Below the pieces are notes generated by a model that did not search any database, was not told the origin of the DNA, and saw only the letters and a list, made by a program, of their open reading frames with translations. This document shows, in pieces, positions 1 through 45,540 of a stretch of DNA of 45,540 nucleotides; position 1 is the stretch's first letter; each line of letters opens with the position of its first letter. The position numbers and the translations under genes were made by a program. The stretch comes from a virus. The stretch lies in IMG/VR virus record IMGVR_UViG_3300048919_000583, positions 1 through 45,540 of that record; one strand, written 5' to 3'.

Positions 1-1503
1 ATGAAAATCCGTATTCCAGCCCTTAAGGTTCACCAGTGGCTCCCTGAATGGGACAAAGTCTCTTGGGATAGTCATCAGCATCGATCAGCTCCACCCAAAA
101 ACTTTATGGTTTTGTCGATGAAGGCTGGTGACTTACGACGCCTCTCCGCAATTTATCGTCGACAGGCGGAAGGGACTCCCCGGACAGAGGATCTTGGAAT
201 TCAGCGCCGCCATGATAAAAAGCGATCTGAAAATATCAAGCAGTTTGTCAAGTACGGATACCCCTATTGTGATCTTACTAAGCACAACCAAGAGTCAGGA
301 GATCACGAAACTCTGAGAAAGCCCGGCTGGCTTCCCACAGGCATCGTGATCAATATCCTCAAAGCTGGCGATACTCGAATGGAAAAGACGGTCGCTGAGG
401 ATGACTTGATAGATATTGTTGATATGAGCGATAAGCTCGCTGAACTGTCGTATTCGGAAAGTATGACAGCCGATGACTGGACACCTAGCGGCATCGCACC
501 AGTGGAAGTCATTGATGGTCAGCATCGACTTTGGGCGTTCGATGATTCGGATTTCGCACCAGACTTCGAAATGCCGGTTATCGCGTTTCATGGTCTTGAT
601 ATCAGTTGGCAGGCGTACTTGTTCTGGTCGATCAATATCAAACCAGTAAAAATCAATACGAGCTTAGCTTTTGATATGTATCCGCTTCTGCGAGCAGAGG
701 ACTGGCTGGAGAAGGAAGGGCATAAAGTCTATAAAGAGGCTAGAGCGCAAGAGCTTGTTGAAACACTGTGGATACATCCTGATAGCCCATGGAAAAACCG
801 CATTGATATGCTCGCGACACCCAACAATCCATATGTTCGGCAGGCTGCATGGATTCGAACGATTATTAGCTCGTTCATCAAGCCTGTTGACGCCAGAAAA
901 AGCTCGGGGGGATTGTTTGGCGAAATTAAGAATGCAAGCAGCGAGGTGTTGCCTTGGAACAGGGCGCAGCAAGCGGCATTTTTAATATATGTGGGCAAGG
1001 AGCTATGCTCAGAAGTTCGTAAATCTGATTCAGATTGGGCCAAAGTTCTGAGAGAAGATTGCGCACCTGACATGCTCGATCCGGATTTTGAGCCAGCGAT
1101 GTTTGGTAAGAAGACTTTCTTGAATACTGATCAGGGTATTCGTGCACTCTGGTTAGTCGTCAATGATATTTTCATTAGTCACTTGGGTGAGTGGAAGTTA
1201 TATGAGTGGCATCCGGTCGATGAATATGGGAATTGTTCCGAGGAAGTTATTTCCAGTGAACTAAAAAATATCGCCAGCCTACCTCTCGCGTCCGTTATTC
1301 ATAAACTTGCGCAAAGTCTCGCGTCGTTCGACTGGCGAACCTCGACTGCGCCCGGTCTAGAAAGAGAACAAATCAGCCTGCGTAAAGGGTTTAAGGGGAG
1401 TGGAGGGTACGTAGATCTAAAACGATTGATTTTAGAGCATATCGCAAGGGATGCGGTTGCACCGGAGATTTCTGAGGCCGCTGCTGCGGTGTTGAAGTTC
1501 TAA
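1..1503 (+). CDS. DGQHR-domain (DndB/ParB-like) protein, first gene of a putative defence cassette
   Basis: A 500-aa protein whose hallmark is the DGQHR motif at residues 172-176 in the context EVIDGQHRLWAF. This motif defines the DGQHR/DndB group, which shares the ParB/sulfiredoxin-type fold and is linked to DNA modification systems. An Arg/Lys-rich helix at about residues 69-83 precedes it. No nuclease or methylase motif is visible. The next gene starts 13 bases downstream, and an adenine methylase is the third gene of the same operon, so a role in sensing or controlling modified DNA is plausible but inferred. The ATG coincides with the window edge, so the true start could lie upstream. GC content looks well below that of the phage genes, suggesting transfer. 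Confidence 0.75.
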   Translation: MKIRIPALKVHQWLPEWDKVSWDSHQHRSAPPKNFMVLSMKAGDLRRLSAIYRRQAEGTPRTEDLGIQRRHDKKRSENIKQFVKYGYPYCDLTKHNQESGDHETLRKPGWLPTGIVINILKAGDTRMEKTVAEDDLIDIVDMSDKLAELSYSESMTADDWTPSGIAPVEVIDGQHRLWAFDDSDFAPDFEMPVIAFHGLDISWQAYLFWSINIKPVKINTSLAFDMYPLLRAEDWLEKEGHKVYKEARAQELVETLWIHPDSPWKNRIDMLATPNNPYVRQAAWIRTIISSFIKPVDARKSSGGLFGEIKNASSEVLPWNRAQQAAFLIYVGKELCSEVRKSDSDWAKVLREDCAPDMLDPDFEPAMFGKKTFLNTDQGIRALWLVVNDIFISHLGEWKLYEWHPVDEYGNCSEEVISSELKNIASLPLASVIHKLAQSLASFDWRTSTAPGLEREQISLRKGFKGSGGYVDLKRLILEHIARDAVAPEISEAAAAVLKF

Positions 1504-1516
1504 AAGGGGCAAAGGA

Positions 1517-2863
1517 ATGTTGGGCGCAGCAGAACAGTTAAAGTTCAATTTGGCTTCCCCGGGTAGCATAGTCAATGCCTTAAGTCGCGCGTCGGCTAAT
1601 TTTTCCTCTGATTCTTTCTTGGCTAGTGGCAACACCTATCAAGTTGGCGTCGGTGCATCGGTTAAAAACCTTATTGCAACAGCTAGCGGGCCTTTGCAGG
1701 CTCCGGAATTGGTGGAGTCGATTGCGGTTTCGTCCATCCTGCACTTGTATGACGGATGGTCGTATCTCTCACAAGCGCTTCGGGCGACATTTCGAAGTGA
1801 TGACTCCATCGCTCGTCACTTGGCTTATTACGGAGAGCTAAGGGCATCGCTTTCAATCCTGGCATCATATGGTGTGGGAGTCTTTAGCACTATACATGTG
1901 GTGGTCGATGCTGCTGAAAATGTGCACAAGTTCCATAAAGGTGGTACGCACCAAATTGCCTGGTCCGCCTTGGAGGCCTGGGGCAAGACACCCACTTCAG
2001 GAGCTTTGATAGGGTCAGAAATCCAAGCGTTTGGTCGCGATATGGCTGACTGGATTATGGCGTTCCAAGGGACATCAACTCCAAGTCTGATTGGTGCTGA
2101 TTGGGTTGAAAATTGGGGTATAGATCTGAGCTCGTTCTCATCAGACAGGTCAACGCGGAACGAGGTGTCTTATGGTGTCGATTTTGATCACACAAAGATT
2201 TGTCTCACGCCCAAAACTATCGAACCCTGGCTACGGGAACTCTGGTTAACTTCTGAGCCCGGAGGAGCCTCCTTCGAGCTACTAGACAGGTATTTAGTTC
2301 GCTCGACTCTTGAAGGTATTTATAATACAAAGTTCAAAGATCCCCTTCATACTCCAGAGCAGTCGGTGGACGATCTACGTGAAAAAATGCTAGATACCTG
2401 TCTAGCAATGGGGTTGGCCTCCGATGATATTGTGGACTTTTTCATTCGAGACACGTGTGAGGAAGATCTTCTGGTAATGAAGTTGGCTCGTTCACGCTCT
2501 GCAGTTCAGGATCCTCTTCAATATCAGGAAGTCATGTCTAGGACTTACCTTTTGTTAAGGTTAGCGACAGCATCCGTCAGCGCACTATTACGTAAAGCAA
2601 GCTTAAGCACGGATGATCTAGCATTTTGGTGGGTAAAAACTAGCGAGGCTTCGGGACTGTGGGACAGTGCTCTCGGACTGAAAACTGCAGAAGAAATCAA
2701 GGATCTCTGGGCTGATACCTCGCTGTCCTTGGATGAGCTAAGTGAGTGCATTGCCAATAATTCAGCCAGTGCAGATAGTTGGTTCTTTTTTAACGCTAAT
2801 ATATCGAAGGATCTAGAAAGTCTTTCTCGGGTGGAAAAAGTGGCTTTGTGGGGTATTTCGTGA
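1517..2863 (+). CDS. unrecognised 448-aa protein, second gene of the DGQHR-methylase cassette
   Basis: I do not recognise this family by name. The protein looks soluble and mostly helical, with no signal peptide or membrane segment. The stretch most like a conserved core is at about residues 78-130, around RHLAYYGELRASL (100-112), followed by a glycine-containing hydrophobic strand and HVVVDAAENVHKF. The C-terminal half is helical and acidic. I see no PD-(D/E)XK, HNH, PLD, Walker or clear HEPN RX4-6H motif. The ATG follows an AAAGGGGCAAAGGA ribosome site. It sits 13 bases after the DGQHR gene, and its stop overlaps the methylase start (GTGA), so the three are co-translated. It is the cassette's unknown component and therefore a candidate effector. 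Confidence 0.7.
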   Translation: MLGAAEQLKFNLASPGSIVNALSRASANFSSDSFLASGNTYQVGVGASVKNLIATASGPLQAPELVESIAVSSILHLYDGWSYLSQALRATFRSDDSIARHLAYYGELRASLSILASYGVGVFSTIHVVVDAAENVHKFHKGGTHQIAWSALEAWGKTPTSGALIGSEIQAFGRDMADWIMAFQGTSTPSLIGADWVENWGIDLSSFSSDRSTRNEVSYGVDFDHTKICLTPKTIEPWLRELWLTSEPGGASFELLDRYLVRSTLEGIYNTKFKDPLHTPEQSVDDLREKMLDTCLAMGLASDDIVDFFIRDTCEEDLLVMKLARSRSAVQDPLQYQEVMSRTYLLLRLATASVSALLRKASLSTDDLAFWWVKTSEASGLWDSALGLKTAEEIKDLWADTSLSLDELSECIANNSASADSWFFFNANISKDLESLSRVEKVALWGIS

Positions 2864-3669
2864 ACAGTGGCAGTGTACAGCCATTTTTGAAATGGGCCGG
2901 TGGGAAGCGTTGGCTAGTTGATAAACATATCAACTCTTTTCCGCGTGAGTTTAATGGTTATTTTGAGCCGTTTCTTGGCAGTGGAGCAGTGTACTTCTCT
3001 CTGATGCCAGAAAACGCTGTTCTGTCTGATCTTAACGAGAGTCTTGTTGATACTTACTGTGCTATTCGTGACGATTGGGAGCAAGTTTATAATGTTCTAA
3101 AACGCCATCATAGTCAGCATTCTGCGGAGTATTATTACAAGGTTAGGTCCTCAAAGCCGCGTACGCCACATACCAAAGCAGCGCAGTTTATTTATCTTAA
3201 TCGCACCTGCTGGAATGGACTGTATCGAGTCAACCTGAACGGCGATTTCAATGTTCCTGTAGGTACAAAGAAAAATGTCATTCTTGACACAGATGACTTT
3301 GCGGCAGTCTCGAAAATGTTAGGTTCGACAGAGATCAACGTTTGCGATTTTGAGGAAACAATCGACAGGGCGGGGCGGGGCGATTTGATCTTCGCGGATC
3401 CTCCTTATACCGTAAAACATAACTTCAACGGATTTGTGAAGTACAACGAAAAGATATTTAGCTGGCAGGATCAAGAGCGGCTCAGTGAAGCGCTCATTAG
3501 AGCCTCAGCCCGTGGCTGTTTCATCGTTTCCACTAACGCTCATCACCCTGCGGTCGTCGATCTGTATCAAGAGTTCACACTCCAGTCGCTAGATCGCTCG
3601 AGCGTAATAGCTGGCTCCGTGGCTGGTCGTGGTCGTTATGCCGAATTGTTCATTACTAACTTTTCCTAA
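2860..3669 (+). CDS. Dam/DpnII-type DNA adenine-N6 methyltransferase
   Basis: A 269-aa class-alpha (D12) adenine methylase. The N-terminal FLKWAGGK (about residues 9-16) and the PFLGSG loop (37-42) bind S-adenosylmethionine. The catalytic motif IV is DPPY at 180-183. Length and motif order match Dam and M.DpnII, so the product should methylate adenine in a short palindrome, possibly GATC; the target is inferred. I chose the GTG at 2860 because it overlaps the previous stop as GTGA and has GGGG six bases upstream; a GTG at 2848 is also in frame. It could be the self-protecting modification arm of the cassette. It differs clearly from the second prophage methylase at 39489-40283. Confidence 0.88.
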   Translation: MNSGSVQPFLKWAGGKRWLVDKHINSFPREFNGYFEPFLGSGAVYFSLMPENAVLSDLNESLVDTYCAIRDDWEQVYNVLKRHHSQHSAEYYYKVRSSKPRTPHTKAAQFIYLNRTCWNGLYRVNLNGDFNVPVGTKKNVILDTDDFAAVSKMLGSTEINVCDFEETIDRAGRGDLIFADPPYTVKHNFNGFVKYNEKIFSWQDQERLSEALIRASARGCFIVSTNAHHPAVVDLYQEFTLQSLDRSSVIAGSVAGRGRYAELFITNFS

Positions 3670-3759: not shown

Positions 3760-4824
3760 TCATTTCGTGGGCTTTACGATCTCCCCGACACGTCGGTAGA
3801 CCTTCTTGGTGATCTCCTCGGAAGAGTGGCCGAGCAGTCTACTAGCATGCTCCAGGGCTATCTCGCTCGCGGCTTTTGGCCGTATGTCACGAAACTGAAA
3901 TTGCCGGATGCTCGTTGCCAGAGCATTATCGCCATCGGCTGCAGCCTTGATAGCGGCCTTTTCCCGGGCTTCATCCCAACGATTGCGCAGCATCTGCTGG
4001 CTCATGCGCAAGCCTGAAGCGTTGGTGATCAGCACCGAGGTCTTGATGCGATTCATTGCGCGTCGTTCCTTTAGTTTCTCCAGGAAGACTGCTAGGTCTG
4101 ATTGTTTGCCAGCGTCCTCCAAGAGGATTCGTAAGCGTTTCTCGGTTTTGCCCTGGCCAATCCGCAGAAAGCCTTCGCTCATGTCTGTGGTCGCAGCCTT
4201 CAGCACATCCGCGGGCCGCTGACCGGTGAGGTACGCAAGATCCATGGCGTCTCTGAGTTCCTGCGCTGCCTGGGCATATACAGCATCCCAGACGATATCG
4301 CCCGCGTAGTAGTCCCTCGGTGTTTCCTTGTTGCGGCGCACACCAAAGCACGGGTTGGCCTTATCAGTCATGCCCCATTCTCTGGCGATGGTGAACACGT
4401 GGGAGAGCAGGGCAATTTCCCGATTGGCCCTCACCTTGGCGGTGCGGGCGTCGCGATACTGAGCCACGATCTGAGGCGTGATCGCATCTATGGGAGCGGT
4501 ATCGAAGGCTTTGCGCAGTTGCTTGAGCTCCTTGAGGTTGTCGCTTTGAGTCCGTGGCTTTTTTCCGGGGATGATTTTCGCTTCGTACTTGTCGAAGAGC
4601 GCTCCCATCAGGTGCGCAGGTTTCGGTGGCGCAGTGCGCTCTAGCCTGGCCCATTCGATCCTTGCCTCATTGAGGTCGCTACCCAGTGGGATCTCGACGC
4701 GCTTGCCATCGGCATTGCGCCCGCAGTAGTAGTACCCGACCCAGATCTTGCCGCTCTTTCTTTTACGGGTACGCCTGAGCATCCGAGGCGGCAGGTCCCG
4801 GTTTTCTAGCGTTCTATGGCGCAT
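3760..4824 (-). CDS. int: phage tyrosine recombinase (integrase)
   Basis: A 354-aa tyrosine recombinase for prophage integration and excision. The N-terminal about 75 residues contain a basic region and a beta-sheet segment (KIWVGYYYCGRNADGKRVEIPLG) resembling AP2-like arm-binding domains. A SAM-like core-binding domain covers about 75-165. The catalytic residues are visible: R203 (TGQRP), K226 (GQGKT hairpin), R315 (FRDIRPKAAS, with no classical HxxR), H333 (LLGH) and nucleophile Y343. The start lies four bases after the DUF4224 stop, so the pair is one operon. The remnant integrase at 43117-43966 is a close relative beside a tRNA-Cys att, so this enzyme probably uses the same site. Confidence 0.93.
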   Translation of the reverse strand: MRHRTLENRDLPPRMLRRTRKRKSGKIWVGYYYCGRNADGKRVEIPLGSDLNEARIEWARLERTAPPKPAHLMGALFDKYEAKIIPGKKPRTQSDNLKELKQLRKAFDTAPIDAITPQIVAQYRDARTAKVRANREIALLSHVFTIAREWGMTDKANPCFGVRRNKETPRDYYAGDIVWDAVYAQAAQELRDAMDLAYLTGQRPADVLKAATTDMSEGFLRIGQGKTEKRLRILLEDAGKQSDLAVFLEKLKERRAMNRIKTSVLITNASGLRMSQQMLRNRWDEAREKAAIKAAADGDNALATSIRQFQFRDIRPKAASEIALEHASRLLGHSSEEITKKVYRRVGEIVKPTK

Positions 4825-8117: not shown

Positions 8118-8160
8118 ATATCAACTGGTGGTTGTGATATGTCAACAACTATAGGTTGAT
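8118..8160. promoter_or_regulatory. left operator region for the prophage repressor
   Basis: Four half-sites resembling those at the cro operator cluster here: ATCAAC (8120-8125), a GTTG (8131-8134), GTCAAC (8141-8146) and GTTGAT (8155-8160). They form two imperfect dyads upstream of the leftward early operon, and the helicase-nuclease gene starts to the right. The half-sites match the perfect palindrome at 11538-11554, which suggests that one repressor controls both promoters, like OL and OR in lambda. Binding is inferred. Confidence 0.6.
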
Positions 8161-8254
8161 TATTGGTGCGAGATTAAGACTGATAGCGTATGGACATCCT
8201 CCTCGCCTGAGTTTACGTTCCCAGCCACCACATCAGAAAAAGGATGAACTGACC

Positions 8255-10747
8255 ATGATAGATTTCACGCGCATTGGAACGGGTGTAACAGTTGATACCG
8301 TCCTGCAACCTAGAGAAATTTTCAACGCGTTACCTAAAAAAAATGCCCATAAGTTTCAATATCCTCGTGATGTCCAGTCTCAGGTGTGGTCAAAATGGTT
8401 TGAACGTCGTAATGAGAATAGCTTAGTTCTTAAGTTGAATACTGGAAGCGGGAAAACTGTAGTTGGCCTGTTAGCATTAAAAAGCTGCATAAACGAAGGA
8501 AAGTTCCCCGCTGTATATATATGTCCAGATCCCTATCTTGTAAAACAGGTTATGGACGCTGCGGAAGAGTTAGGCGTTGAAGTTACAGATGATGTGCACT
8601 CGCATCGGTTTATCTCCGGAAAAGCTATTCTAATAGCAAATATATTCAAGTTGGTGAATGGCCGATCAGCGTTTGGTGTTGGAGATGAAGGAGTAAAAAT
8701 AAAAATTGCAAGCTTGGTTGTAGATGATGCGCATGCATGCATCGGTTATGTTGAAGAACAGTTTACGGCGGAAATTCCGCATGAGAGTGCTGCCTACACT
8801 GCATTATATGAGTTGTTTAAGGAATCGTTGCATAATCAATGTGAGTCAAAAGCGCTGGAGGTGGAAAGTGGTAATACAGCTGCTTTGATGCAAGTCCCTT
8901 ATTGGGTGTGGCAAAGTAAGATTTCAGAAGTATGTAGAATTTTGATTGCGCACAAAAAAGAAGATTTCTTACAGTTTGTTTGGCCTTTGATAAAAGAGTT
9001 CCCTAAGCTGAGTCATTGTGTGGTTGGTGCGAAGAGTATTGAAATAACTCCTCATGCAATTCCTATTCATATGATCCCAAGCATCATTGATGCTGAACGA
9101 AAATTATTCATGACTGCTACGCTTGTAGATGATTCTATATTGGCTAGTCATTTTGGAGTGAATGAGAAGTTCCTGAAGCATCCGATTGTCCCTGATTCGG
9201 CGGGTGATGTTGGCGATCGAATGATATTGCTCCCACAGGTGATAAATTCCGATTTCGCCGATGATCATATAAAAAAGTACTGCAAGTTTATTGCTGAATA
9301 TATGAATGTTGTGGTTATTGTTCCATCAAAAGCGCGAGCTGATTACTGGAGAGATAGCGCCAACTTGGTTCTTTTTGCGAATAATCTTTATGAGGGTGTC
9401 GATAAGCTGAAGGCTGGTAAAGTAGGTCTTGTCGTACTTGTTAATAAATACGATGGGATTGATTTGCCAGGGGATGCTTGCAGGTTATTAGTAATTGATG
9501 GATTCCCGGATGTGCGTAGTAAGATTGACAGGATCAATCAAACTGTTCTGCTGGGAAGCGATCGTGACGTAAACCAGATAATTCAGCGTGTTGAGCAAGG
9601 GATGGGGCGCGGGGTCAGGTCGAATGATGATTATTGTGTAGTATTTTTAATGGGGAGAGATCTGACCAGTAAGCTATATGCGCAAGGTGCTTTGAATAAG
9701 TTTTCTCCAGGTACTAGGGCGCAGTTGACCTTGTCTGAACAAGTTTCTGAGCAAATTAAAGGAAAGAAGCTGTCGGAAATTACAGATACATTAAATTATT
9801 GCTGGGCGAGAAAGGAAGAGTGGGTTGCGGCGAGTAAAGGAGTGCTTGCAACACTAGCGTATGCTCATGAAAACACTCTAGACTCTAATATTATTTCCCT
9901 CAGAAAAGCGTATGATTTTGCTTGTAATAGTAACTATGCGGCGGCGGCAAAAGAGTTGAAAGATTTGGTTAATGGAGTGTCTGATCTAAAATTCAGAGGC
10001 CTAGTTAAGCAGCATTACGCCGAGTATACTAATTTGTCAGATCTCGCCTCTGCTCAAAAGATTCAACTGTCGGCGGTGGGCGATAATCGAAGACTTCTTA
10101 AGCCTATTGAGGGCATTCAATATCACAAGATATCCGGAGCTGTTCTCGATCAAGCCAAAGCATGTAGCGAGTTCTTGACAGAGAGCTTTCAAGATCCGAA
10201 TAAGCTGGTTGTCGAAATTAATGGAGTGTTGGAGGGGCTAGATTTCAAGCTTGACAGCTCTGAACTGTTCGAAGCAAGGATGAAAGAGGTTGCTAGATAT
10301 TTGGGTTTCCGCAGTCAACGCCCGGAGCAAGAGTACCAAAAGGGGCCTGACGTTTTGTGGAAGACTGGTGAGCTAAACTACTTTGTGATTGAGTGTAAAA
10401 ACGAGGCGGTGGTTGAGACTATAAGCAAGTACTACTGTAATCAGCTCAACGGTTCTTGTGAGTGGTTTGAGGATCGCTACGATCACTCGAGCAGTTATAC
10501 TCCAGTTTTGGTTCATCCGTATTCGTTGTTCGAGTACTCTGCCTCGCCAAATCAAAATATTCGGGTTATGACTCGGGAAAAGCTAGGCGAATTTAGAGAG
10601 GCGGTTCGTCAATTTATCAGCTCTGTCGCTAGCAGTAATGAATTGGGAGATGCAGTTGCAATCAGGCAAAAGTTGATTGCGGCGCAGCTAAGAGCGTCTG
10701 ATTTCTGTGATAAATATACCGTTCCCTTCAAGGTGAAAACGCGTTAA
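8255..10747 (+). CDS. SF2 helicase fused to a PD-(D/E)XK nuclease, putative superinfection defence
   Basis: An 830-aa protein with two visible parts. The helicase has Walker A TGSGKT (63-68), motif II DDAH (157-160), motif III TAT (287-289) and motif VI QGMGRGVR (448-455). The last is reminiscent of DinG/XPD-type and other SF2 enzymes. After a helical linker (about 500-650), the C-terminus carries GPDVLW (about 697-702) and ECKNE (713-717) behind an acidic helix, the arrangement of a PD-(D/E)XK nuclease with D699, E713 and K715. It lies between the left operator and the repressor, facing the repressor, which is the position of rexAB in lambda. GC is clearly low. I start it at the ATG at 8255 (AAGGA ribosome site). 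Role as anti-phage protein is inferred. Confidence 0.8.
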   Translation: MIDFTRIGTGVTVDTVLQPREIFNALPKKNAHKFQYPRDVQSQVWSKWFERRNENSLVLKLNTGSGKTVVGLLALKSCINEGKFPAVYICPDPYLVKQVMDAAEELGVEVTDDVHSHRFISGKAILIANIFKLVNGRSAFGVGDEGVKIKIASLVVDDAHACIGYVEEQFTAEIPHESAAYTALYELFKESLHNQCESKALEVESGNTAALMQVPYWVWQSKISEVCRILIAHKKEDFLQFVWPLIKEFPKLSHCVVGAKSIEITPHAIPIHMIPSIIDAERKLFMTATLVDDSILASHFGVNEKFLKHPIVPDSAGDVGDRMILLPQVINSDFADDHIKKYCKFIAEYMNVVVIVPSKARADYWRDSANLVLFANNLYEGVDKLKAGKVGLVVLVNKYDGIDLPGDACRLLVIDGFPDVRSKIDRINQTVLLGSDRDVNQIIQRVEQGMGRGVRSNDDYCVVFLMGRDLTSKLYAQGALNKFSPGTRAQLTLSEQVSEQIKGKKLSEITDTLNYCWARKEEWVAASKGVLATLAYAHENTLDSNIISLRKAYDFACNSNYAAAAKELKDLVNGVSDLKFRGLVKQHYAEYTNLSDLASAQKIQLSAVGDNRRLLKPIEGIQYHKISGAVLDQAKACSEFLTESFQDPNKLVVEINGVLEGLDFKLDSSELFEARMKEVARYLGFRSQRPEQEYQKGPDVLWKTGELNYFVIECKNEAVVETISKYYCNQLNGSCEWFEDRYDHSSSYTPVLVHPYSLFEYSASPNQNIRVMTREKLGEFREAVRQFISSVASSNELGDAVAIRQKLIAAQLRASDFCDKYTVPFKVKTR

Positions 10748-39455: not shown

Positions 39456-39488
39456 CTGTTTCTCTCTACAGCAAAGGTCTTGCTTTTA

Positions 39489-40283
39489 ATGTCTACCCCT
39501 ATCATCCCCTGGATGGGCGGCAAACGCCGTCTGGCCGACCGGCTTATTCCTCTCTTTCCACCCCATGAGTGTTACGTTGAAGTCTTCGCTGGCGGTGCCG
39601 CGTTGTACTTCCTGCGACCCCAGCCCGCGCCAGTTGAAGTCCTTAATGACATCAATGGCGACCTGGTAACGCTGTACCGCGTCGTGCAGAACCACCTTGA
39701 GGAATTTGTGCGCCAGTTCAAGTGGGCGCTCAGTTCTCGGCAGGTTTTCGAGTGGCAAAAGATGACCCGCCCGGAAACCCTCACCGACATTCAGCGTGCC
39801 GCCCGATTTTTCTACCTGCAGCATCACGCTTTCGCAGGAAAGGTCACTGGGCAAACATTCGGTACCGCGACCACTGGCTCCGCCATCAATCTATTGCGGA
39901 TCGAGGAGAACCTATCCGCTGCCTGGCAGCGCCTGTCTGGCACCTATGTTGAAAACCTTGCGTGGCTTGAATGTGCAGAACGCTACGACCGTGCTCATAC
40001 CTTCCACTACATGGATCCGCCTTACTGGCAGACCGCCGGCTATGGAGTTGAGTTTCCTTTTGAAAACTATGAGCGGATGGCCGAATTTATGCGGCGCTGC
40101 AAGGGCAGGGTAATGGTTAGCATCAACGATCACCCCGACATCCGGCGCGTGTTCGAAGGCTTTCATTTTGAGACTTTGGATATCCGATACACCACCACGA
40201 ATCAGCGCCAGGGGAAGGCCGAAGTGAGCGGAGAGTTGGTGATTATGAACTGGGTGCCGGCGGTTCTGGGAGGGTTATTCTAA
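39489..40283 (+). CDS. phage DNA adenine methylase (D12 class)
   Basis: A 264-aa D12-class adenine methylase. It shows PWMGGKRRL (SAM-binding motif X, about residues 7-15), VEVFAGGAALYF (motif I, about 31-42) and MDPPYW (catalytic motif IV, about 176-181). It differs from the Dam/DpnII-like enzyme at 2860-3669 in spacing and sequence. It probably protects phage DNA from host restriction or regulates expression; specificity unknown. The preceding structured RNA may control it. The ATG at 39489 lacks a strong ribosome site, consistent with translational control. Confidence 0.88.
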   Translation: MSTPIIPWMGGKRRLADRLIPLFPPHECYVEVFAGGAALYFLRPQPAPVEVLNDINGDLVTLYRVVQNHLEEFVRQFKWALSSRQVFEWQKMTRPETLTDIQRAARFFYLQHHAFAGKVTGQTFGTATTGSAINLLRIEENLSAAWQRLSGTYVENLAWLECAERYDRAHTFHYMDPPYWQTAGYGVEFPFENYERMAEFMRRCKGRVMVSINDHPDIRRVFEGFHFETLDIRYTTTNQRQGKAEVSGELVIMNWVPAVLGGLF

Positions 40284-40770: not shown

Positions 40771-41421
40771 CTAAATTATACCAGCCTCTTTTTGTAATTT
40801 TCTAATATAGGCATTTAAGGATTTGCTAAAAAGAGGGAGGGTGTCGTTTATAAAGTTCCAGTTAAAACTCAATAAGGCGCTACTCCAGCCTGCTCTATAA
40901 ATAAGCCCGTCTTCATCGGGTTTTTTATTTCCATGTGTCATGTTAAAGCTGCTTTGGTCAAAGTGAGCGCCATGACTATCGCGGTATGCTTTGGCATCCT
41001 CTATGAACTCATTAAATTTTATCTTAATTTCGTCAGAAAATGCCTCTAGAAGTATATCGTCGACAATAGGACCCCAAAATTTTTTTGTGTTCGAGGCAAT
41101 AATTTCTTCTTTTCCATATCCGCTGTTAAAAATGGTGCAAAATTTAATAATTATTTCTTCGGTTATTAATTCTTCAAAGAGCTGGATGTCATGAATGTCT
41201 GGAAATAAAGAACCATGTTCTTTTTCAAAAATATTTAATGCGTCGTGATCAAGTCGCAGGCCAGTGTTTAATCTGCGGCGCTCCTTGTCGTATAGTTCGG
41301 TAATATGCAGCGGCCTACCAGTTTTGCAGAAGCGATCAACTCGTTGTCGAAGTGCAAGAAGATCAATTGTTCTATTAATTGCTATCTGCCATAAATATAA
41401 CCTGCCAAGGGTTTCTTTCAT
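40771..41421 (-). CDS. HEPN-like protein, candidate abortive-infection RNase
   Basis: A 216-aa, very AT-rich, helical protein. The segment EDAKAYRDSHGAHFD near residue 150 contains R147-x5-H153, fitting the HEPN ribonuclease RX4-6H motif. It resembles the YRDKHxAH-type motif of AbiU2-like proteins. Many HEPN proteins are RNases in abortive infection or toxin-antitoxin systems. No antitoxin-like partner adjoins it. I start at the ATG at 41421 (AAAGGTGA eight bases upstream); a GTG at 41433 is in frame. It is flanked by 26-bp direct repeats and lies in the right-end moron position. Confidence 0.6.
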   Translation of the reverse strand: MKETLGRLYLWQIAINRTIDLLALRQRVDRFCKTGRPLHITELYDKERRRLNTGLRLDHDALNIFEKEHGSLFPDIHDIQLFEELITEEIIIKFCTIFNSGYGKEEIIASNTKKFWGPIVDDILLEAFSDEIKIKFNEFIEDAKAYRDSHGAHFDQSSFNMTHGNKKPDEDGLIYRAGWSSALLSFNWNFINDTLPLFSKSLNAYIRKLQKEAGII

Positions 41422-41447
41422 TTTTTGTATCACCTTTATAAGAGCGC

Positions 41448-41473
41448 CCTGGTTTGCAGTTGTCGAACTGGTT
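41448..41473 (+). repeat. 26-bp direct repeat, copy 2 (right of the HEPN-like gene)
   Basis: Identical to 40640-40665. Downstream sequence remains loosely similar for another few bases (GGTTGCTGCC versus GGTTATTGGC), then diverges. Confidence 0.85.
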
Positions 41474-41542
41474 GCTGCCTGCGGTGGAGGCCAGCAAGCG
41501 AACCATAACCGCCATTCGTTTGGGATAGCTAAGCTGCTGACT

Positions 41543-42451
41543 CTAAAAATCTGACCGAATGTCTGTCGCGTCTAGAGAATCATGATCCTGGAAAGTATCT
41601 GCTGCAGGGTTATCCTCATGATCGTGCCAGTCGCCCGTGTCAACTATCAACGAATCTTCGACGAACTCCAGCGCCTCAGGATCTGGATTTGCCGCTTCAC
41701 AGGTCAATTCGCAGGTGTATTCGAAGGATTCATCCAGTTCGGCTCCATCGCCTCTTCTGAAATCAGAGTTGGATCCCCACTGCAATGTCACGCCCAGGCT
41801 ACCGCTTACTTTGATATGCACGGTCTCCGAGGTGATACAGGTAACCTCGTGCGAATCCACATAGATTTGCTCGAGAGAATAGTGCGTGGCTAGCTCGTCA
41901 ACACCGTCCAAACTTTCCCCGACAATCTGCTGAACCGTTGCATCAGTGATCGCACTTGATAAGCGATCTCCGACGGCGGCTCTGCATTCCTGAATGCAGG
42001 CCATCAGAACGGCCACGGCTTCGATTGTTTCCTGTGCGAGGTGCTCGATGTCGTCGTCTTCCAACTGGAAAACTTCCGGTGTGATGTGGACGTACCCGTT
42101 CAAACGGGTTACGGCATCTCGAAGCTCATTGAACTCTTGAGCGAAGTCCAACCGGAGTTTTGTCCGCACGTAGTGATTGGAAAGTCCTCCCTGCGTTGCA
42201 TACACACACCGCTCGACTCGCGTTACCTGCGGGACAACACCTTCTGCCTTCTGCTGCCACCATATGCACTTTTTCACCTCGGCATCTGGAGCAAGGCGCT
42301 TCAGAGTGTGGCCCACCAGCTCGCGCATAGCGAAGGCGAAGTTATGAAAGCGCAGCCTGTTCCTGCGGTCTTCGAGGTTCAATATCGCAGCTTCGTACAG
42401 CTCACGCTCGAACTGAGCATCACCGATTAGCTGCAAAATCCTCTCGTCCAT
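41543..42451 (-). CDS. acidic protein of unknown function, second right-end cargo gene
   Basis: A 302-aa cytosolic protein. The N-terminal part (LEDRRNRLRFHNFAFAMRELVGHTLKRLAPDAEVKKCIWWQ, then VYATQGGLSNHYV and LRLDFAQEFNELRDAVTRLNGYVHI) looks like a conserved domain. It reminds me of families annotated as pPIWI-associating nuclease domains, but I cannot confirm that. The last about 80 residues are strongly acidic and Asp/His-rich. I start at the third Met (42451), because GGAG lies six bases upstream; earlier ATGs exist at 42463 and 42475. Placed beside the HEPN-like gene at the prophage right end, it could be defence cargo. Confidence 0.6.
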   Translation of the reverse strand: MDERILQLIGDAQFERELYEAAILNLEDRRNRLRFHNFAFAMRELVGHTLKRLAPDAEVKKCIWWQQKAEGVVPQVTRVERCVYATQGGLSNHYVRTKLRLDFAQEFNELRDAVTRLNGYVHITPEVFQLEDDDIEHLAQETIEAVAVLMACIQECRAAVGDRLSSAITDATVQQIVGESLDGVDELATHYSLEQIYVDSHEVTCITSETVHIKVSGSLGVTLQWGSNSDFRRGDGAELDESFEYTCELTCEAANPDPEALEFVEDSLIVDTGDWHDHEDNPAADTFQDHDSLDATDIRSDF

Positions 42452-42614
42452 ATTCTTCTCCATGTTGGCGATCATTCAGGATCATCTCTCAGAGCGGGGA
42501 TAGAAGTCACCTGAAAGCAAAGTAGAAGGATGTTGACGCTTCATGCGGGTCACCCCGGTGGGCACCAGCGGCAGCCTTGGGTCGTTAACAGTCTCGCGTT
42601 TAGATACAGTAGAA

Positions 42615-42992: not shown

Positions 42993-43046
42993 GGATTGCA
43001 AATCCGCCTACGCCGGTTCGATTCCGACCTCGGCCTCCACCCTTGA
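42993..43046 (+). other. att site: tRNA-Cys 3' half (attR of main prophage / attL of remnant)
   Basis: 42993-43039 reads as the 3' 47 bases of a tRNA-Cys: anticodon loop TTGCAAA (42996-43002, anticodon GCA), T-arm GGTTCGATTCC and acceptor CTCGGCC-T-CCA. No matching 5' half (GGCCGAG) lies upstream, so it is a fragment, not a gene. The bases 43001-43046 recur perfectly at 45495-45540. This is the classic product of integration into a tRNA 3' end. Confidence 0.85.
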
Positions 43047-43049
43047 AAA

Positions 43050-43079
43050 CCCCGTAGATTAACGTCTACGGGGTTTTTT
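43050..43079. terminator. intrinsic terminator after the att core
   Basis: CCCCGTAGA-TTAACG-TCTACGGGG, a perfect nine-pair stem, followed by six T on the plus strand; on the minus strand it is followed by four T. It can end both tRNA-side and integrase-remnant transcripts. Confidence 0.8.
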
Positions 43080-43116
43080 ACTGCCTGTATGAAAGTGCTG
43101 GCGTACCAAAACTTTC

Positions 43117-43966
43117 CTATTTCGTCGGGTTTGCGATGGCGCCAACTCGAACGTAAATCTTCTTTGTGGTCTCCTGTTTTGAGTGTCCGAGAAGCCGGCT
43201 CGCGTCGTCCAGGTCGAGAATTTCAGATGCCGCCTTCGGTCGGATATCACGGAACTGAAACCCTGCGATTTTCTTAGCCAGGCCCTGGTCGCCTTGTTCG
43301 ATAGCCTCAGCCACGGCTTTTGACCTGGGCGTCGTCCCATCTCTGGCATAGCATGCGCTCGGAGACCTTCTTCCCCGACTTGCTCACGATCAAATAGCCA
43401 GAGTTTATTTTTTTCGGTCTGGCAATAATTCTCTCGATGAGCAGGCCCAAGCTATTTTTCTGGCCATCGACCTCCATGAGGATTCGGATCTTCTTGGAAG
43501 TCTTGCCTTGGCCAACGCGCAGATACACTCCCTCCACATCATCGACACGCATTAGTCGGACATCGGCTGGGCGCTGGCCGGTCAGGTAGGCCAGATCCAT
43601 TGCCTCCTGCAGTTCAATTTCGCCTTTCTGGTAGACCGCCTTCCATACCGCGTCGTTTGCGTAATAGTCGCGCGGCGTTTCCTTGTTCTTACGAACGCCC
43701 TGGCAGGGGGTCTCTCTGTTGGTCAAACCCCATTCGCGCGCAATATTGAAGACGTGAGACAGTAAGGCGATTTCTCTGTTGGCTCTGGTTTTCGCGGATC
43801 GCTTATCGCGATAGGCAGCAATCATCGATGGCGTAATCGCATCCACCGGTATCTCGTCAAAAACTGGCCTTAGCTGCCTCAATTCGGCCTTGTTGTCCTT
43901 CTGAGTGCGCTCCGACTTTTTCGGGATGATGTCGCGCATGTACCTATGGGTCTTCCTTGGGCGCAT
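43117..43966 (-). pseudogene. integrase pseudogene of the remnant element
   Basis: A relative of the intact integrase at 3760-4824, sharing blocks such as NREIALLSHVF, NKETPRDYYA, LAYLTGQRPADV, FRDIRPKAASEI and LLGH. Two lesions are visible. After MRPRKTH the sequence jumps to RYMRDIIPKK, lacking about 70 N-terminal residues (the arm-binding domain). At about 43312 an extra A in GTCAAAAGCC (AAA would restore the frame) shifts the C-terminal 65 codons, which carry the catalytic R, H and Y, out of frame. It is therefore inactive. The gene ends 70 bases from the att core. Confidence 0.9.
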
Positions 43967-43967
43967 T

Positions 43968-44042
43968 TCATCTCACTCGCGACAAATCAAAGTTCCAGGT
44001 GGGGACTTCAGCGGGCGGGTTGCTTTGCCCGCCATCGCCGGC
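43968..44042 (-). pseudogene. C-terminal scrap of a DUF4224 gene
   Basis: Reads SNPPAEVPTWNFDLSRVR then stop, corresponding to the DUF4224 end ETWTLDLSKVG of the main prophage, one base before the integrase remnant start. The N-terminal two thirds are missing. Confidence 0.65.
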
Positions 44043-44069
44043 AGGCTTTCCGATTGTTGAGTGGGGTGT

Positions 44070-44393
44070 TTAGAGTTGTTGCAGGATTCGCTGGCCGATC
44101 CAGCGGACGACGGTGACTGCCTTGCTGTTACCGATCGCCTTGTAGCGTGGGCCGTCTGGGCATTCGCTGGCAGGCTTGCCGCGCCAGGGGATTAGGGTGT
44201 AGTCCTCGGGCATGCCTTGGAGGCGTTCGCACTCGCGTGGGGTGGAGCGCCGAATACTGGAATTCGCGAGGATATGTGGTGTGCCGCCTGGGTCTGGTGC
44301 GTGATCGCCTGCTTGTAGGGTATGAGTATTCGCACCGCCCAGGGCCTGGTATCGGAGAGGGCTCCAGTCATGTCTGTGAACGTCCTGATTCAC
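44070..44393 (-). pseudogene. C-terminal fragment of a DNA cytosine methyltransferase
   Basis: The last about 65 residues match C5-methylase ends: RRSTPRECERLQGMPEDYTLIPWRGKP, then CPDGPRYKAIGNSKAVTVVRWIGQRI, covering motifs IX-X. The catalytic PCQ and ENV motifs are absent, so it cannot methylate. The upstream 40 residues are only loosely similar to the family. It is a deletion remnant; phages with this integrase type often carry such a methylase nearby. Confidence 0.8.
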
Positions 44394-44423
44394 GTATGCG
44401 ACACTGTGCTATCTCACTAGGGA

Positions 44424-44966
44424 ATGGAATGTTTACAAATGGTCCAATTGTTAGCGGTGTCCGGAAGCATTCGCGCAGCATCTTCTAACTCTGCACTGCT
44501 ACGTGCGGCTGAGGTGTTGAGCCCTGAGGGGGTGTCGATCAAGCACTATCTGGCGGTTGGTCAATTGCCGCACTTCGATCCGGACCTGGCTGATGATCCG
44601 CCGCAGAGCGTCAGAGAGTTACGGGCTTTGGTGGGTAAGGTAGATGGCATCCTTATTTCGTGCCCTGAGTATGCTCGTGGAATACCTGGTTCTTTCAAGA
44701 ATGCCTTAGATTGGCTTGTGGCCAGCCATGAATTTCCTGGTAAGCCGGTTGCACTGTTTAACGCTTCACCTCGTGCGAGTCATGCCCAAGCGGCGCTTCG
44801 TTTGGTGCTGAACACCATGTCCGCAATAGTTGTCGAGCCTGCGTCGATAACTGTGAATCTGCTCGCAAAGGGAATGAATGAGGCGGACATCGCAGGGAGC
44901 CCAGAGATCAGTAAGCAGATCGTCTCGGCATTGGTTGCATTCAAGAGCCACATTGAGGTCATGTAG
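44424..44966 (+). CDS. NADPH-dependent FMN reductase family protein
   Basis: A 180-aa flavodoxin-like reductase. The FMN phosphate loop is SGSIRAASSNSALLRAA (about 13-29), and PEYARGIPGSFKNALDWLV (about 78-96) is the second flavin-binding block. Such enzymes reduce FMN or quinones with NAD(P)H. The gene appears intact, with start at 44424 (GGAA upstream) or 44439. A metabolic gene lying between phage fragments is odd: it is either cargo or host DNA captured during the deletion that formed the remnant. Confidence 0.85.
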   Translation: MECLQMVQLLAVSGSIRAASSNSALLRAAEVLSPEGVSIKHYLAVGQLPHFDPDLADDPPQSVRELRALVGKVDGILISCPEYARGIPGSFKNALDWLVASHEFPGKPVALFNASPRASHAQAALRLVLNTMSAIVVEPASITVNLLAKGMNEADIAGSPEISKQIVSALVAFKSHIEVM

Positions 44967-44985
44967 GAATCGCGAAGGTGAGCGA

Positions 44986-45540
44986 ATGAACAGGCCTGTG
45001 CCTCCCCTCTCACTGCTTGAGCTAACCGATTTGTCCGACTTCGGTACCCTACGCATCAATCTGCCGGCAGCTACCAGCGGCTGGCTGCTCAGGGTGACCC
45101 GCATCACCTCGAACCAGAACAACAACAAAATTGCCGACATCATGCAGATCGCGGGTTTCACCGAGGTCATCGATGCAAAGCTGCGCTACCCGAACACCGC
45201 GCTGCTCTACATCGAGTTCTCGGCCGAGCAGTTCCGTAGCATCCCAGCCGTCACAGTGGAGACCAAGCTGAAGAGGGTTCTTGTGCCGGCCAACTACAAC
45301 CCTGTGGCTAGGACCTACTCCGGTATCTGGGACGGTAGCTTCAAGTTGGCCTGGACTGACAACCCAACCTGGATGACCTACGACATCACTGTCAGTGACC
45401 GCTTCGGTCTAGGCCGCCGCATCAAGCCGTGGATGGTGGACAAGTGGGAGCTCTACCGGATCTCCCAGTATTGCGACCAACTGGTACCGGACGGAATCCG
45501 CCTACGCCGGTTCGATTCCGACCTCGGCCTCCACCCTTGA
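44986..45540 (+). pseudogene. fragment of a lambda J-like tail tip protein ending in the att site
   Basis: A 184-codon reading frame. Its core (GWLLRVTRITSNQNNNKIADIMQIAGFTEVIDAKLRYPNTALLYIEF, VPANYNPVARTYSGIWDGSFKLAWTDNPTWMTYDI, RFGLGRRI, DKWELYRISQYCDQLVPDG) matches an internal part of the lambda gpJ central tail fibre, which is normally over 1000 residues. Both ends are lost. After VPDG the frame enters the att core and ends by chance 14 residues later. It shows that the remnant came from a siphovirus-type prophage, unlike the main contractile phage. The ATG has GGTGAG upstream, but expression would be meaningless. Confidence 0.85.
45495..45540 (+). other. second copy of the att core (attR of the remnant)
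   Basis: A perfect 46-base direct repeat of 43001-43046, containing the tRNA-Cys T-arm and acceptor with CCA. Identity begins just after the anticodon, so strand exchange lies in or near the anticodon stem-loop. The match may continue beyond the window. Confidence 0.9.

Follow-up and report, generated by a model that had tools for sequence, protein, structure and literature searches.

What does a three-gene operon that joins a DGQHR-motif protein to a DNA methylase do at the edge of a prophage? The question is raised by the IMG/VR virus record IMGVR_UViG_3300048919_000583, the whole of which (45,540 bases) was analyzed and is referred to here as the window. Its first three genes encode a DGQHR protein, a middle protein (MID) and a Dam-type adenine methylase. 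The trio was found to recur in many genomes, with the first two genes as a fixed pair and the methylase as an exchangeable neighbor. We favor, with a probability of roughly 60%, the reading that it is a mobile, modification-gated defense unit working like a restriction–modification (R-M) system.

The initial annotation had described a coupled operon of low G + C content containing a DGQHR protein, an unrecognized 448-aa protein and a Dam-type methylase, and both the open reading frames (ORFs) and the base composition bear this out. The DGQHR and MID genes are separated by 13 bp that include a sequence resembling a ribosome-binding site (AAAGGGGCAAAGG). The overlap between the MID and methylase genes is 16 nt with the GTG start at 2848, or 4 nt if the GTG at 2860 is used. 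The G + C content of the trio is 0.473, compared with 0.598 at 11–39 kb, the structural region.

The first relatives of MID were obtained by tblastn, as patterns made from the single sequence gave none in viral contigs. They were located on a Rhizobium plasmid and on Zymomonas plasmids, each between an upstream DGQHR gene and a downstream methylase gene. A three-sequence alignment of the DGQHR protein then yielded 78 loci from genome contigs and nine from viral contigs. MID, detected with a hidden Markov model (HMM), lay directly behind DGQHR on the same strand in all 86 fetched loci with sequence past the DGQHR gene; in the three loci without MID, the sequence stops at that gene or no more than 65 bases from it, and two of the loci (L005 and L083) represent one genome in which an insertion sequence separates DGQHR from MID. 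Because the loci were picked by DGQHR alone, the presence of MID is an independent result. In most loci the MID start codon and the DGQHR stop codon are no more than about 20 nt apart. No additional recurring gene was found behind the trio in the loci compared.

The hosts belong to Pseudomonadota, Actinomycetota, Chloroflexota, Bacteroidota, Cyanobacteriota, Planctomycetota, Verrucomicrobiota, Campylobacterota and others, together with one archaeal locus in a Methanoregula bin, and the loci are also found on plasmids, prophages and islands. When about 800 genomes were searched with the MID profile, matches were obtained in 2 of 399 genomes of a phylum sample and 3 of 399 of a family sample, the centre genome counted. 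The few matches per sample and the many phyla indicate that the unit is rare per genome and very widely spread. One locus newly found through MID alone (L268) possesses DGQHR, MID and a methylase. No relatives of MID or DGQHR were found among INPHARED phages, and the trio was not found in the E. coli genomes. Pairwise distances of DGQHR and MID were correlated at 0.98 and 0.87, compared with 0.64–0.85 for the methylase against either protein, which suggests that DGQHR and MID evolve together and the methylase less tightly with them. The trio is thus a real unit recurring in other genomes, and its proposed link to DNA modification is supported.

The methylase of the window matched the Dam family TIGR00571 (E value, 8e-69; 232 bits against a cut-off of 115), and its motifs I (FLGSG) and IV (DPPY) are intact. 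The closest solved structure is that of DpnM (2dpm; E value, 7e-54), and the likeness to DpnM and Dam suggests GATC as the target. The published methylome of Zymomonas mobilis ZM4 contains only CAGN4CTG, GAAGN7TCC and GANTC, with no Dam-type gene listed (PMC8432527); it was not used to assign the target, as the 31-kb plasmid that carries the trio is probably absent from the strain sequenced. D12 methylases accounted for 70 of the 82 candidate proteins scanned and, according to HMM matches, neighbored the pair in 71 of the 86 loci; DPPY was kept in 70 of the 70 D12 proteins checked. They fall into subfamily A (266–319 aa, Dam/DpnM-like, the type of the window) and subfamily B (mostly 373–423 aa), of which one member tested had no relative in the PDB. 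The methylase gene is convergent rather than co-directional in L060, L070 and L084.

Other modification genes may take the place of the D12 enzyme. Five loci without D12, which form one clade (SH-aLRT 99), carry an unrelated N6_N4 methylase gene immediately upstream of DGQHR. An MT-A70 methylase was present in two loci; it is not a firm partner type, as both have a frameshifted DGQHR gene. Similarly, DndC and DndD genes were found in a single locus, 550 bp downstream of the DGQHR–MID pair on a Pseudanabaena plasmid (L026, 11561–17136), and are not counted as firm partners either. A further three non-D12 loci are cut by contig ends. When the labels A, B and other were placed on the tree of DGQHR and MID, 15 changes were required in all, and at least eight changes were counted for A on strongly supported branches only. 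What points most to function is that the pair is constant and its modification enzyme exchangeable.

Among 75 homologues of the DGQHR protein, Q68 and R69 (QR), D172–R176 (DGQHR), and F208 and N212 (FxxxN) are invariant, and these are the motifs of the DGQHR/GmrS type (PMC4619093). The protein matched TIGR03187 (E value, 1.3e-15) with 57.9 bits, just below the cut-off of 58.85. Its AlphaFold2 (AF2) model reached a predicted local distance difference test (pLDDT) of 90.5; in a Foldseek search the top match was the CTP-bound ParB 7bm8 (probability 0.95, with an E value of 0.22 and a TM-score by target of 0.43). SspE was also among the top PDB matches, none of which was confident, so that the model points weakly to a fold like those of ParB and SspE. 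The protein is related to DndB and DpdB, but the window does not hold a Dnd or Dpd system. Scans of Pfam, PADLOC and NCBIfam gave no match of the DGQHR protein to a nuclease family.

MID itself had no match in Pfam, PADLOC or NCBIfam (for NCBIfam, the protein of the window alone was scanned; the searches did not extend to PHROGs or to AlphaFold models of cellular proteins), and its sequence had none in the PDB. Across 81 MID sequences with a mean column identity of 29%, 11 positions are invariant: H76, W81, H101, Y104, Y105, R109, T144, H145, R214, Y219 and R342. The AF2 model was of high confidence (pLDDT 94.6; predicted TM-score 0.94), and its fold found no match in the PDB or BFVD.

On the favored reading, the methylase would mark the DNA of its carrier with N6-methyladenine, perhaps at GATC by analogy with DpnM and Dam. 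The DGQHR protein, with its predicted nucleoside triphosphate (NTP)-binding ParB/Srx fold, and MID would form the constant arm that recognizes DNA without the mark, and together they would attack such DNA or induce a cellular shutdown; the best candidate for the catalytic effector is MID. What the sequences show is the invariable pair, a linked methylase that can be exchanged, the lack of further recurring genes and mobile surroundings rich in defense genes; the discrimination of self from non-self, the use of NTP, the cleavage of nucleic acid as the outcome and the identity of the cutting protein are steps that we infer. More tentatively, and with some doubt, the trio might define a new restriction class, in which a constant DGQHR protein (a ParB-fold NTPase) and MID (a nucleic-acid-attacking protein with a fold absent from the PDB) would serve interchangeable methylases, the arm sensing the absence of the mark instead of one fixed enzyme's sequence. 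No description of this trio was found in the literature searched; operons of a ParB nuclease, a HEPN protein and a methylase were noted in 2013, so that the general scheme has precedent (PMC3710099).

Several observations weigh against this reading. Both constant proteins lack a match to any known nuclease family. Three loci (L019, L030 and L038) have an intact-looking pair and no methylase nearby, and L033 retains only a methylase remnant, although another D12 methylase is encoded elsewhere in three of these four genomes, L038 being the one with none. If the pair recognizes a single sequence, the exchange of methylase families would also be unexpected, unless every one of them marks the same site. 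A strict form of R-M decay, in which the restriction part is always lost first, was considered and rejected: L005 and L081, where the pair is broken and the methylase intact, fit it, and L019, L030, L033 and L038 show the opposite. The DGQHR gene of the Stutzerimonas genome (L005 and L083) is frameshifted, and a transposon-like insert lies between it and MID.

The main rival explanation, which we consider unlikely, is that DGQHR and MID form a complex that serves the methylase, either regulating or targeting it; the trio would then be a device for epigenetic or self marking that includes no effector. This would agree with the lack of a recognizable nuclease in the trio and with the near-constant retention of the methylase, and DGQHR relatives are known from modification arms, namely DndB, with a proposed role in limiting phosphorothioation, and DpdB, which helps base insertion. 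However, a helper of 950 residues would be superfluous for a simple one-subunit Dam-type methylase, the pair stays constant while unrelated methylase families come and go, and the many invariant His, Arg and Tyr residues of MID look enzyme-like.

A special case of the favored reading would make MID a HEPN-type abortive-infection ribonuclease, released when its ParB-like partner senses unmodified or damaged DNA. In MID, the segment R214-N-x-x-S-Y219 stands at a helix end and the invariant T144 and H145 follow a helix pair, which resembles HEPN families with a relocated His; no His occupies the Rx4-6H position. AbiV-like HEPN variants have lost the motif His and kept another one, and the operons mentioned above were reported for the MAE_28990 family (PMC3710099). 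The resemblance is limited to these motifs, however: hhalign gave probabilities of 0.1% to HEPN_MAE_28990 and 0.04% to AbiV, the Pfam scan of the 81 members contained no HEPN match, and the fold search was likewise negative. A search with YaaC (PF14175) had no matches at all, even among its controls, and so carries no weight. The HEPN identity was therefore rejected for MID on present comparisons and is rather improbable.

The surroundings of the trio are rich in defense genes, both in the window and elsewhere. The integrase gene (int) of the window belongs to a prophage family with an attachment site (att) at the 3' end of tRNA-Cys. The two att copies in the window share 46 bp of identity, and the att core occurs nowhere else in it. 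Of 72 viral contigs carrying relatives of the integrase, 53 were examined, and the att core was found downstream of int in 21 of them, always in the same orientation and at 103–4973 bp. The DNA between int and att in these relatives has a G + C content of 0.40–0.54 and genes that are mostly unrelated between records; PADLOC matches in this slot included PtuA (Septu), a DRT class III reverse transcriptase (RT), AriA (PARIS-like) and AbiLi, and the slot of L163 contains, by reading, an apparent C5-methylase (cytosine) and a Vsr-like protein. The int–att interval of this family is a cargo slot rich in defense genes; the initial annotation had named such intervals as cargo hotspots, and the 21 relatives agree. 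Apparent SIR2-like proteins and a three-gene set with a KGGVGR ParA-like protein (L140) were also seen as cargo among L124–L195.

The window begins exactly at the ATG of the DGQHR gene and ends on a stop codon, the record having probably been cut at gene borders; attL and the tRNA gene therefore lie off the record. No overlap with the left end was found when an exact match was sought in viral contigs. Since the trio stands on the att side of int with no att core between the methylase and integrase genes, a position that the initial annotation had considered for attL, we place it in the int–att slot, the last step being indirect. In the remnant element, the int stop is about 70 bases from att, as had been noted; that integrase gene is split over two frames.

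The trio was also found in other settings. In one locus it lies in a filamentous-phage element with a Zot-like gene (L082) and in another it adjoins apparent filamentous-phage genes (L083), so that it reads like cargo of unrelated phage types; a third is in another prophage (L084). DUF4433 and macro-domain genes (DarTG-like) adjoin it on a Zymomonas mobilis plasmid (L003, 11890–13613), DRT class III genes (PRTase-like and RT) are immediately upstream of the pair in L038 (790–5018), and type I restriction genes adjoin the unit in one or more settings. The least probable rival is a selfish addiction or plasmid-type maintenance module, in which hosts that lose the unit would have their unmethylated DNA attacked, phage defense being a by-product; occurrence on plasmids, prophages and islands and an R-M-like composition would suit it, but the slot is common to dedicated defense systems and some pairs persist with no methylase nearby.

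The features of the window are listed in Table 1. Beyond these, an 863-aa helicase-like protein at 8156–10747 (+), with a G + C content of 0.427, matched the PADLOC candidate PDC-S28 (E value, 0) and is a second candidate defense gene. At the right end of the prophage, outside the trio, lies another, distantly related gene of the D12 methylase-like type (39480–40283, +). Two ORFs of 220 and 310 aa without identification (40771–42475, −) near the right att are possible further cargo; the first is in DNA of low G + C content (0.449 at 41–42 kb).

Table 1. Positions of the trio, integrase and attachment-site features in the window.
Feature	Position	Strand	Remarks
DGQHR protein, 500 aa	1–1503	+	Leads the operon; NTP-binding fold of the ParB/Srx type predicted
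MID, 448 aa, unnamed family	1517–2863	+	Obligate partner of the DGQHR protein
D12-class adenine-N6 DNA methylase, Dam/DpnM type	2848–3669	+	Predicted active; TIGR00571, motifs
Prophage tyrosine integrase	3760–4824	−	PF00589 (E value, 1.6e-10); 72 relatives in viral contigs
att copy, tRNA-Cys 3' end with GCA anticodon loop	42993–43046	+	Right end of the main prophage
Second att copy	45495–45540	+	Far end of the remnant element
Remnant element between the att copies	43046–45540		Integrase in two frames (43059–43349 and 43307–43966)

If the favored reading is true, a two-protein restriction arm without a recognizable nuclease has been overlooked in about 85 loci from many phyla, and Pfam, NCBIfam and PADLOC all lack it. 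The trio would then offer DGQHR proteins, which have a debated role in Dnd and Dpd systems, a simple and testable setting, and bacterial immunity would gain a new fold. The analysis also defines a slot in which a prophage family of the Pseudomonas type carries defense cargo, bounded by int and the tRNA-Cys att.

Among known systems, type II R-M of the DpnII/MboI kind resembles the trio in having a Dam/DpnM-type methylase in an operon, in being mobile and in lacking an HsdS-type specificity subunit. It differs in that the trio has no known endonuclease, DGQHR and MID standing in the nuclease's place, and in that the methylase families are exchanged; library scans of the methylase's neighbors revealed no cognate endonuclease from a known family, and no downstream gene recurs. 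The Dnd/Ssp systems (DndB, SspE) share the DGQHR motif, the link to DNA modification and, by weak prediction, the ParB-like fold, whereas the operon of the window has no DndCDE or SspBCD and no SspE-type HNH domain, and its DGQHR protein falls below the Dnd cut-offs (DndB, 17.8 against 29.1 bits; DGQHR_dnd_1, 47.8 against 450 bits). The Dpd 7-deazaguanine systems are approached by a weak DpdB match of 22.4 bits, compared with a cut-off of 300 bits, and no DpdA- or DpdC-like genes were seen in the trio operon. GmrSD type IV restriction has three motifs in common with the trio, namely QR, DGQ(H/Q)R and FxxxN, which occur in its ParB/Srx-like GmrS domain; unlike it, the trio has a linked methylase and no GmrD/DUF1524 HNH domain, and library scans found no HNH nuclease domain of the GmrSD or SspE type in any trio protein. 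The operons of HEPN MAE_28990, ParB nuclease and methylase (Anantharaman 2013) likewise combine a helical protein, a ParB-like protein and a methylase, although no relationship between MID and HEPN_MAE_28990 was detectable. PD-lambda-5, a methylase-containing system of an E. coli prophage, is also prophage-borne, and the trio methylase weakly matches PD-Lambda-5_B (E value, 1e-8), but the partner proteins are unmatched and the methylase is much nearer to DpnM. The trio was filed as a modification-linked defense variant that stands outside Dnd, Dpd, GmrSD and type II R-M.

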